A program made the translations under genes and the position numbers. From NCBI RefSeq assembly GCF_030052995.1, contig NZ_JASJPW010000001.1, forward strand, positions 3,028,001-3,092,000: a stretch of 64,000 bases of DNA, read 5' to 3'. The number at the start of each line of letters is the position of its first letter. The first letter of the stretch is position 1. Source of the stretch: Gemmobacter sp. 24YEA27. Lineage in GTDB: Bacteria > Pseudomonadota > Alphaproteobacteria > Rhodobacterales > Rhodobacteraceae. Shown here one piece after another: positions 13,615 to 25,251 of this stretch. A model generated the notes under the pieces. It was not told the origin of the DNA. It made no database searches and was given only the letters and a program-made list of their open reading frames with translations.

Positions 13615-15197
13615 TCATAGCCCAAGATGAATCGCTCTGTCCCAGGCGAGCGATTCAAGGAATTCCGTGTCGTGGCTGATCACCAACACCGCACCATCAT
13701 AAGCGGCCAGCGCGGCCTCCAATGCAGCGAGCCCGTCCAGATCGAGGTGATTGGTCGGTTCGTCCAGGATCAGCAACATCGGCGGCGGCATCGACCCAAG
13801 GGCACAGGCCAGTCCGGCGCGAAGGCGCTCGCCGCCACTCAATTCGCGCGTATAACGCAAGGCATCCGAGGCTCGGAACCCAAATCGGGCCAGTGCGGCA
13901 TGGGCCTTATGGGGATCTGCCACGGGGTTCAGGTGCAGGAAGTTATCGCGAAGGCTGCGGGCGGGATCGAGCAATCCGACATGCTGATCCAGCAGCGCGA
14001 AGGGCACCATCACCTCCGCCCGCCCGGATTGCGGCATGATCTGACTGGTGATGATCTTCAGCAGAGTGGTCTTACCGCTGCCATTCGGCCCGGCAATGAC
14101 GATCCGTTCGGGGCCGGTGACGGTCAGCGACAGATCGCGGATCACAGGGCGGGCAGGATCATATCCGCCGGTCACCCCGTCCAGTGTCAGCACCGTCTTG
14201 CCGGGGCAAGGCCGGTCGGAGGAATGTCCATACGGAGCGGTTGCAGGATTTCGACCTTTTCGCGCGCGGCGGACATTGCCTCATCCGCCGCTTCGCGCCG
14301 GGCATCCCGCAGACGCGCCCCGGCGCCGCCCGAGGCTTCCGCCCGCCCCCTGGCGAAATCCAGCAGGATTTTTGGCTGATCCCCTCTGGCGCGCGCCCGA
14401 TGCCCGGCACTGTCCTTGCGCGCCTTACGCTCGGCCACCTGCTGCGCGCGACGCGCAGCATCCGAGAGGGCTTTTTCCGCGTCGGCAAGACCACGGGACG
14501 CAGCATTCAGCTCCGCATCCTTCCGCTGCCGGAAGGCACTGTAATTCCCGCCATATCGGGTTGCCCCAAGCGAGGTCAGTTCAACGATGGCGTCCATTTC
14601 TTCCAGAAGTTCGCGATCATGGCTGACGATAATCGCCCCGCCCGTCCATCCCCGGATGAGGTCGATGACCGCCCTGCGCCCATCACGGTCAAGATTGTTG
14701 GTCGGCTCATCCAGAAACAGGAAATCCGGCTCTGCAAGGATCAGGGCGGCAAGGGCGGCGCGACTGCGCTGTCCACCGGAAAGTGTCGCAAGCGGTGTAT
14801 GCGCCGCGGCGGAGAGGCCACAGCGCAAAAGCGCGGCCTCGATCCGGGCTGGCAATGTCCAGTCCGCATCCGCCAGTTCATCGGCCTGTGCAAGCCCCGC
14901 CTCGGCCCGGTCCAGCAAATCAAGCGCGGGCCGGATACCGAACAGGTCGGCTATGGTGTCGTCAGGATGCTCCATCGCCTCCTGTCGCATCATCGCTATG
15001 GCACCGGAAATCTGCACCTGACCGGAAGCCGGTGGTAAATCACCAGAAATCAGGCGCAGAAGCGTGCTCTTGCCGGAACCATTGCGGCCAACGACGCCGG
15101 TCCGTTCAGGGCCGAAGGCCAGGCTGAGATCAGTGAAAAGCGGTGTTCCGTCAGGCGTGGACCAAGACAGATCGGACAGAAAAACGGATGCGGGCAT
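13615..15197 (-). CDS. ABC-F family ATPase (ribosome-protection/translation-factor type), frame broken by one missing base
   Basis: Two ATP-binding domains lie on one chain without membrane segments: Walker A GRNGSGKST, signature LSGGQRSR and FLFLDEPTNNLD in the first; GPNGSGKTT, LSGGERLR and LLILDEPTNHLD in the second, joined by a charged helical linker. ABC-F proteins bind the ribosomal E site; many protect against macrolides, lincosamides, streptogramins or pleuromutilins. The frame breaks at 14203-14206: the first part ends PTGLAPARRC and the other frame continues with LTLDGVTGGYDP. One added base gives 527 residues, the family length. The start is overlapped by an upstream ORF and hairpin, which suggests drug-induced control. 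The resistance role is inference. Confidence 0.85.
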
Positions 15198-15255
15198 GGG
15201 TCTGAACTTCTCGTAGCGAAACCGGGAGGGTGGTGGCGGCGAGGTTCAGACGCAT
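15151..15255 (-). CDS. Upstream ORF (34-codon leader peptide) overlapping the ABC-F start
   Basis: ATG 15255 opens MRLNLAATTLPVSLREVQTH and runs to a stop at 15151, crossing the ABC-F start codon (15197) in another frame. GGAG lies 11 bases before the ATG. The peptide start is hydrophobic, like stalling leaders of drug-induced resistance genes. A ribosome stalled in the first 15 codons would keep the downstream hairpin open. Its translation is not proven. Confidence 0.5.
   Translation of the reverse strand: MRLNLAATTLPVSLREVQTHARIRFSVRSVLVHA
15196..15255 (-). promoter_or_regulatory. Hairpin hiding the ABC-F ribosome-binding site and start codon
   Basis: In the minus-strand RNA, AUGCGUCUGAAC (15255-15244) can pair with GUUCAGACCCAU (15207-15196) with a single mismatch, and CUCG pairs further in with CGAG. 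The 3' arm carries the ABC-F AUG and touches its GAGAAG ribosome-binding site, while the 5' arm is the beginning of the leader ORF. This is the geometry of translational attenuation. Confidence 0.55.
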
Positions 15256-15414
15256 AGGGACAGCTTCTCCGGAAGGTATATGACTGACAGGTAAGGGTCG
15301 CACGGCAATTTTACAAGCCAGCGCCAAAGGGGGCTTTCGGCGCAAACCGGACCGCCGCCCCTTCGGGCCGGGACAGCAGCCTGCCTTGCTAGCGCCGCTC
15401 TCCCTGTAGCTGCA

Positions 15415-15969
15415 TCACTGGAACGGGTTTGACGGTGCCGGTGGCGCGCTTTTGCCGGTGATCGCATCGCCGCATTCAAGCAGGGACGTGATCGAGGCTT
15501 TCGACCCCGAAAGCGAGTAATTCTGCACCTCTTTGCCGTCTTTCGAGCGCAGGAACAGCTTGTTGCCTCCGGCGATCTCCATCACGAAACTCACCGCCGC
15601 ATCGCTGTCGGGCAGGTTGAAGCTTACCGAATTCTGCTTGAGGCTGGCGGCGGTCAGATCCCAGCCCTCGCGCTTGTCGATCTGGACCCGCAGATCCGCG
15701 ACCTGGCCTTCGGTGCCGAAATCCCAGGAGGTGGAAAAGAACTGCAGCTGGATCATCGCATCCTGAAAAATCCAGATCGCAAAGCTTTCCTTGTCGTCGC
15801 CGACAACGGCACGACAGCCGACCTCACCATCATCCCAGCCATGGATATCCACCTTCCAGTGCTTGTGCTGGAACAGGATCTCGCTGGAATAGGCCAGCGC
15901 CGGCACAACCTGAGCCAGCGCAAGCAAAGCGGAAAGCGCGATACCGGAAACACCCCTGGCCAGTTTCAT
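15415..15969 (-). CDS. Secreted protein of unknown function
   Basis: A 184-residue protein with a clear signal peptide (GVSGIALSALLALAQVVPAL, cleavage near ALAYS). The mature part is beta-rich, with one Cys in GEVGCRAVVGDD and a second near the end in SLLECGDAI that could form a disulfide. The spacing loosely recalls invasion-associated locus B (IalB)-like proteins, but I would not name it as such. It stands alone between the ABC-F gene and the acyl-CoA synthetase. Confidence 0.65.
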   Translation of the reverse strand: MKLARGVSGIALSALLALAQVVPALAYSSEILFQHKHWKVDIHGWDDGEVGCRAVVGDDKESFAIWIFQDAMIQLQFFSTSWDFGTEGQVADLRVQIDKREGWDLTAASLKQNSVSFNLPDSDAAVSFVMEIAGGNKLFLRSKDGKEVQNYSLSGSKASITSLLECGDAITGKSAPPAPSNPFQ

Positions 15970-25176: not shown

Positions 25177-25251
25177 GCGGGCGTAGCTCAGGGGTAGAGC
25201 ATAACCTTGCCAAGGTTAGGGTCGGGCGTTCGAATCGCCTCGCCCGCTCCA
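25177..25251 (+). tRNA. tRNA-Gly (anticodon GCC)
   Basis: The acceptor arm GCGGGCG pairs with CGCCCGC and is followed by T and an encoded CCA. The D arm is GCTCAGGGGTAGAGC, the anticodon stem-loop is TAACCTTGCCAAGGTTA with GCC in the loop, and the T arm contains GTTCGAATC. All four arms fold. Confidence 0.97.

Follow-up and report, generated by a model that had tools for sequence, protein, structure and literature searches.

The window, i.e., the whole stretch of 64,000 nucleotides of Gemmobacter sp. 24YEA27 DNA that was analysed, carries on its minus strand a gene for an ABC-F protein and, 5' of this gene, a short leader ORF with a Shine-Dalgarno (SD) sequence of its own, the start of which is predicted to pair with the SD sequence and the start codon of the ABC-F gene (Table 1). 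The 34-codon leader is contained in a longer open frame (15345–15151) of the window's ORF list. The ABC-F frame is broken in the window into two ORFs, and at a locus from the same genus (L002) it is one intact ORF of 527 amino acids; from the leader SD sequence through the ABC-F start the DNA of L002 and that of the window are identical. Because the downstream gene is broken, the switch considered here may now drive no working product in the window itself. Between the stop of the first ORF and a GTG of the second there is an overlap of some bases (14187–14193), and a split translation of the two ABC-F halves is conceivable.

Table 1. Features of the leader region and of the ABC-F gene in the window.
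Feature	Position	Strand	Basis or remark
Promoter-like pair TTGTAA (15316–15311), 17 nt, TACCTG (15293–15288)	15288..15316	-	Best-scoring pair; −10 starts 38 nt 5' of leader ATG
SD sequence of leader ORF, GGAGAAG	15264..15270	-	Read from sequence
Leader ORF, 34 codons, ATG 15255–15253, stop ending at 15151	15151..15255	-	Runs out of frame across ABC-F start
Hairpin, 5' arm (leader codons 1–5)	15240..15255	-	Predicted fold and arm-swap test
Hairpin, 3' arm (ABC-F SD sequence GAGAAG, 15212–15207, and ATG, 15197–15195)	15195..15213	-	Predicted fold and arm-swap test
ABC-F, first part (ABC1 and linker), 336 amino acids	14187..15197	-	ORF; 95% identity to intact L002, amino acids 1–334
ABC-F, second part (ABC2), 192 amino acids, different frame	13615..14193	-	ORF; part of a single intact ORF in relatives

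Relatives were gathered by a scan of named genomes (best 80 loci) and by whole-genome searches. An ATG 47–63 nt 5' of the ABC-F start is found at 76 of the 80 alphaproteobacterial loci and at 4 of 25 control loci; together with an SD-like 4-mer it is found at 68/80 and 2/25, respectively. It should be noted that the controls (L006–L030) are the longest ORF per locus from the same search, mostly ABC-F paralogs and unchecked individually, and that the 76 include L120 and L146, in which the ABC-F start is badly placed (74/78 without both). At L120 the leader was later detected by a covariance model (match G250), and L146 is without its N-terminus. The four relatives without an ATG at the leader distance are L050, L064, L141, and L145. 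When these four, L120, and L146 are set aside, 74 loci are left, and after removal of nine near-copies the 65 loci that were used in the pairing tests. Named hosts include Paracoccaceae, Roseobacteraceae, Rhizobiaceae, Phyllobacteriaceae, Erythrobacteraceae, and Sphingopyxidaceae; 13 Curtobacterium homologs (about 40% identity) have no ATG at the leader distance.

Among the 65 relatives, a GGAG or GGAGG starts 12–15 nt 5' of the leader ATG in 46, and the distance from the leader ATG to the ABC-F start is 58 nt in 42 and 55 nt in 11. The promoter-like pair reaches a mean score of 9.92 in the relatives (7.70 ± 1.05 in shuffled sequences) with a 17-nt spacing in 46/65, and its −10 element begins 35–40 nt 5' of the leader ATG in 43/65. 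Conserved ATG, SD sequence, and promoter-like pair thus describe, as far as sequence can tell, a translatable leader 5' of the gene and on one transcript with it. A transcription start downstream of position 15255, which the preliminary description of this DNA had named as an objection to a switch, is made unlikely by the position of the promoter-like pair, whereas a stricter consensus scan (positions 15000–15450 of the window) found no promoter.

The predicted fold of 140 nt of the window (−36.9 kcal/mol) contains the hairpin and has a z-score of −2.33, 2 of 200 shuffled sequences being equally stable, so that the stability signal from the window sequence alone is modest. In the 65 relatives the mean z-score is −2.67 (60/65 below −1), as compared to +0.15 in the 25 controls (3/25 below −1). 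In an arm-swap test, every 5' arm of the 65 non-redundant loci was combined with each of the 65 3' arms, its own included. Own arms pair with a mean of −17.48 kcal/mol versus −13.78 kcal/mol (standard deviation 0.34) for permuted arms, and none of 10,000 permutations was as low. With 30, 19, and 15 representatives of less than 70, 60, and 55% protein identity, respectively, the z-scores are −8.5, −6.4, and −5.8. Control segments gave z-scores between −2.0 and +0.7, the lowest (−2.0) being that of the 5' arm with the ABC-F segment from +10 to +40 in all 65 loci, which was matched by 264 of 10,000 permutations. For the 5' arm of the window its own 3' arm ranks first of 65, and the two AUGs are paired with each other in 46 of the 65 predicted folds.

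This does not mean that every measure of pairing is positive. In the alignment of the 29 sequences of the window's clade, 80.4% of the cells pair (21–45% on sliding), but within this clade all five measures of covariation are below the shuffle mean and double-sided changes are fewer than in shuffled alignments. The stem is frozen in sequence there, and conservation inside the clade alone therefore proves little; since column covariation is negative in it, the evidence for pairing rests on the distant arm swaps and on energy. The co-variation of the arms lies between clades and distant relatives. RNAalifold found no consensus structure on a MAFFT alignment of all 65 sequences, probably because the pairing registers differ. 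The leader ATG and the hairpin reaching to the ABC-F start, which the preliminary description had pointed out, as well as the SD sequence of the leader are thus present in the window and kept in relatives, so that its first objection to a switch, a lack of conservation, does not apply. As to the compensatory changes that it proposed to look for, co-variation of the arms is seen between distant relatives and not inside the 29-sequence clade. That there is no RNA switch at all, and that chance pairing or the conservation of overlapping signals accounts for the data, would agree with a single-sequence z-score of just −2.33 and with the clade lacking covariation; we nevertheless hold it to be extremely improbable, because leader start, SD sequence, and arm pairing are conserved and co-vary across distant relatives and are absent from the control loci.

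What a ribosome on the leader would do to the hairpin was computed with an assumed footprint that extends, counted from the first base of the P-site codon, 14 nt upstream and 17 nt downstream, the 5' end being set 30 nt before the leader. Opening the ribosome-binding site (RBS) of the ABC-F gene costs on average 14.4 kcal/mol in the free RNA and 6.0 kcal/mol with a ribosome on leader codon 1, the drop being at least 2 kcal/mol in 62 of the 65 loci and less than 2 kcal/mol in three. In the window the cost falls from 19.1 kcal/mol (free RNA) to 5.6 kcal/mol with the ribosome at codon 1 and stays low through codon 8; from codon 9 on, no more than 16 nt separate the edge of the stalled ribosome from the ABC-F ATG. 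By computation, therefore, the structure hides the RBS and can be opened by a stalled ribosome. Stalls at leader codons 1 to approximately 8 would fit this model, in which a stall on the start codon should be enough.

We consider it quite probable that the leader is a translational attenuator of the ermC/cplR/toiL kind which responds to ribosomes arrested while they start translation. As long as no drug is present, the RNA from the leader AUG on would pair with the SD sequence and the AUG of the ABC-F gene and keep the ABC-F start closed; in the case of the long-form leaders, ribosomes traversing the overlap may occlude this start further. A drug acting on the peptidyl transferase center would hold a ribosome at the leader AUG or at one of the next few codons, the footprint of this ribosome would cover the 5' arm, the hairpin would open, and a second ribosome could start on the ABC-F gene about 40 nt downstream. 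The ABC-F product, if it confers resistance as we infer, would in turn remove the drug, and the loop would be closed.

What senses the drug is probably a ribosome that stalls on the leader AUG or directly after it, rather than one stalled by a specific peptide. A start-proximal stall is favored because the leader has no coding signature and because 11 of 65 leaders stop within seven codons (e.g., MDK*, MDRN*, MDCTLAH*, from several clades). In codons 3–13 of the 29 long-form leaders, to which the test of synonymous changes was applied out of the 65, 548 of 1758 single-base codon differences are synonymous (0.312). This is no excess over column-permuted alignments (0.311 ± 0.067; 149 of 300 permutations as high), and it is the third codon positions that are least variable. 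The alternative, that a nascent-peptide-specific stall of the macrolide or phenicol type inside the leader peptide frees the ABC-F start, could appeal to the apparent peptide L-A-A...V-S-L-R-E shared by the 29 long forms and to Asp or Asn at codon 2 in 56 of 65 leaders. A good part of the shared sequence, however, belongs to the stem, the SD sequence, and the ABC-F start; Asp/Asn at codon 2 may be explained by stem pairing, with a small requirement of the peptide being possible; and in the window a ribosome arrested further on than about codon 8 would extend to the ABC-F SD sequence. Given the synonymous changes and the occurrence of leaders of 3–7 codons in several clades, a peptide-specific arrest was judged unlikely, and we regard it as quite improbable. 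ErmCL and MsrDL are leaders of the peptide-specific arrest kind; a conserved arrest peptide of this kind, under selection for its amino acids, was not found in codons 3–13 of the 29 long-form leaders. The preliminary description had located the stall within MRLNLAATTLPVSL, a proposal that could not be upheld in view of the missing synonymous excess, the short leaders, and the prediction that in the window a ribosome past approximately codon 8 reaches the SD region of the ABC-F gene.

Of the leaders that are out of the usual frame, 7 of 8 have an early stop, as compared to 4 of the 57 that are in it (Fisher p = 3.6e-6, uncorrected for kinship); when the two other frames are read, early stops occur in 34 of 130 cases. 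Since the out-of-frame leaders carry early stops, the sequences suggest that the leader is translated and must terminate soon, the peptide mattering little. Translation of the leader might also merely unwind the hairpin and keep the ABC-F gene constantly on, without any sensing of drugs. In favor of such plain translational coupling are the predicted opening of the hairpin by a ribosome that covers the 5' arm and the overlap between leader and ABC-F start, which 54 of 65 loci have. Coupling by reinitiation is a poor fit, however, as most leader stops lie either well 5' of the ABC-F start (short forms) or 44–47 nt 3' of it, and the hairpin would have little purpose, yet its arms co-vary; we therefore find plain coupling improbable. 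Transcription attenuation via an intrinsic terminator (vmlR/msrD kind) was considered and rejected for positions 15000–15450 of the window, where a consensus scan found no terminator-like site between leader and ABC-F gene. The leader corresponds to no known RNA family: a search of the whole window at gathering thresholds gave only one tRNA-Gly. No structured RNA besides this tRNA-Gly(gcc) (25177–25251, plus strand) was listed in the window.

A covariance model of the window-type leader, trained on 29 sequences, was run on 388 genomes of the family. With E < 1e-7 there were 13 matches, 12 directly 5' of ABC-F genes and one before an ABC-F remnant; before other genes no such leader was found at this threshold among the 388 genomes. 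Because the 13 include nine training sequences and two near-copies of such sequences (G325, G286), only those in G181 and G337 being independent finds, the search shows specificity more than reach. There were 25 matches in all, of which two weaker ones (E = 3.2e-4 and 5.6e-4) also precede ABC-F genes; of the ten remaining weak matches six were inspected, and all six overlap other large ORFs. The remnant (L169, G337:C1:969936–970003, leader match E = 2.8e-8) appears to be a degraded ABC-F gene with 38% identity over query amino acids 19–170. A second, apparently broken ABC-F gene (L132, G153:C12) has a well conserved leader that lacks an SD-like 4-mer, and its genome contains another ABC-F gene.

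In a tree of 84 ABC-F proteins the alphaproteobacterial branch comprises 74 rows, 68 of which have the leader. The tree was made by a quick method, which leaves 32 of 81 inner branches open, and the broken copy of the window as well as rows too short or nearly identical were left out. The two loci with an MDK-stop leader, L005 and L147, are on a long branch outside the alphaproteobacterial one, alongside the leaderless L141, L145, and L156. MDK-stop is also the tripeptide of a functional variant of the vmlR leader in Bacillus; the two occurrences are possibly convergent. Of the nine plasmid loci fetched, four have the leader (L148, L150, L151, L153) and five do not: L149, L154, and L155 from Sinorhizobium, L152 from Azospirillum, and L156 from E. 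coli. Just 5' of the ABC-F start, L152, L154, and L155 have an operator-like inverted repeat of 22–28 bp with perfect arms of 10–12 bases, and a similar, imperfect one can be seen by eye at L149. A TetR/AcrR gene is annotated next to L149 and L152, and at L154 it was read from an unannotated ORF. The four TetR rows of the tree group with L050; L064 lost its leader separately. The homolog on pSymA of S. meliloti 2011, from the leaderless plasmid group, likewise has no leader, there being only a chance ATG at −50 without SD sequence. The ABC-F protein of L156 (E. coli plasmid NZ_CP064008.1; 35% identity) is encoded next to a recombinase gene, and such ABC-F genes occur on several enterobacterial plasmids.

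By fold and domain order (two ABC domains joined by a helical linker) the downstream protein is an ABC-F. Four intact relatives score 315, 331, 328, and 357 with the ribosomal-protection-like model NF000355, which is below the curated cut-off of 380; NF000355 is nevertheless the top-scoring model for each of them. With the models of the named resistance families (Vga, Msr, Sal, Lsa, CplR, OptrA, TlrC/CarA; cut-offs 680–1450) the four score at most 227. Among solved chains, Uup and EttA are the closest in sequence, and the six top structural matches are resistance ABC-Fs, with EttA almost level. The gene is patchily distributed, being found in 3 of 13 genomes of the same genus and in 23 of 394 of the family (E ≤ 1e-60).

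Drug-sensing leaders of ABC-F genes have been described in Gram-positive bacteria (PMC9226507; PMC10201436; PMC12421871); the comparisons that follow refer to parts of the published texts. In the case of vmlR from Bacillus subtilis, the leader MIN is said to be where lincomycin and retapamulin arrest initiating ribosomes, the natural variants MDN and MDK functioning at least as well as MIN and MRK less well (PMC9226507). The present leaders resemble it in the ABC-F gene, in the tiny and loosely constrained leader ORF, and in the use of MDK-stop (L005, L147). The vmlR leader, however, combines a terminator/antiterminator with an SD-hiding hairpin over 219 nt, whereas the alphaproteobacterial one is a single hairpin of about 60 nt, with no terminator found in the window. 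Conserved leaders of 3–4 codons also precede cplR, lsaA, and vmlR2, ABC-F genes with similar spectra of resistance to pleuromutilins, lincosamides, and streptogramin A, and for the induction of cplR stalling on the leader is essential and premature termination is not (PMC10201436). These are Gram-positive systems, and cplR, as portrayed there, has separate leader and terminator/SD hairpins and no direct start-to-start pairing. In Streptomyces, toeprinting of the leaders of the ARE5 genes tiaA and are5sc showed arrest at the leader start codon by lincosamides, pleuromutilins, and streptogramin A but not by erythromycin (PMC12421871). They, too, precede ABC-F genes, but in Actinobacteria, within 5' UTRs of 194–232 bp, and with terminator/antiterminator models (PMC12421871).

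Two Gram-negative systems come close in other respects. In Escherichia coli the toiL leader forms base pairs with the RBS of topAI, the gene that follows it, and stalling at the start codon by tetracycline or retapamulin opens the pairing (PMC12121999). This leader-RBS pairing is shared, but toiL-topAI is a toxin-antitoxin operon without ABC-F, in which Rho is involved, the whole leader pairs, and there are several stall sites. The leader of a DUF1127 gene in Sinorhizobium meliloti, an alphaproteobacterial leader ORF as is ours, senses impaired initiation under tetracycline, for which Rho-dependent transcription attenuation was proposed; it differs in that the gene is not an ABC-F and that no start-to-start hairpin is described in the part of the report cited (PMC12218461). 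The working principle is thus already known; for the vmlR, ARE5, and toiL leaders, sensing by ribosomes stalled at the leader start has been published.

As with toiL, the same RNA mechanism could serve a general sensor of translation stress, responding to all agents (tetracycline among them) that make initiation or early elongation slower, with the ABC-F as a stress translation factor and not a resistance protein; only the range of inducers and the function of the gene would then differ from those of the attenuator proposed here. Besides the toiL precedent itself, the scores below every resistance-family cut-off and the sequence proximity to Uup and EttA are in line with such a sensor. The patchy occurrence and the plasmid copies are more like those of a resistance gene, however, and the top structural matches point the same way, even if EttA is almost level. 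We regard a general stress sensor as a possible though rather unlikely interpretation. For the attenuator, which we prefer, the inducers predicted from the published leaders are pleuromutilins, lincosamides, and streptogramin A.

Among the top 10–30 open-licence PubMed Central papers of each text search, no drug-sensing leader of an ABC-F gene was found for Alphaproteobacteria, nor the one-hairpin, start-to-start form. Whether the leaders form a so far undescribed, ancestral alphaproteobacterial family of minimal drug switches we consider evenly poised: a hairpin of about 60 nt with mutually masking starts would sense arrest of initiation without a peptide code, would have travelled with an ABC-F resistance family across orders and plasmids, and would have been replaced by a TetR-type repressor in one sub-lineage. 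That the leader precedes most ABC-F copies sampled from the class suggests induction of these proteins by drugs, and it points to an unrecognised, partly plasmid-borne resistance family as well as to its likely class of drugs. With start pairing to start, no terminator seen, and no peptide code seen, the design is among the simplest of its kind and would therefore be a clean system for asking how a gene can be switched by nothing more than a ribosome stalled at initiation. The leader would also be a ready reporter for inhibitors that act at the stage of initiation.
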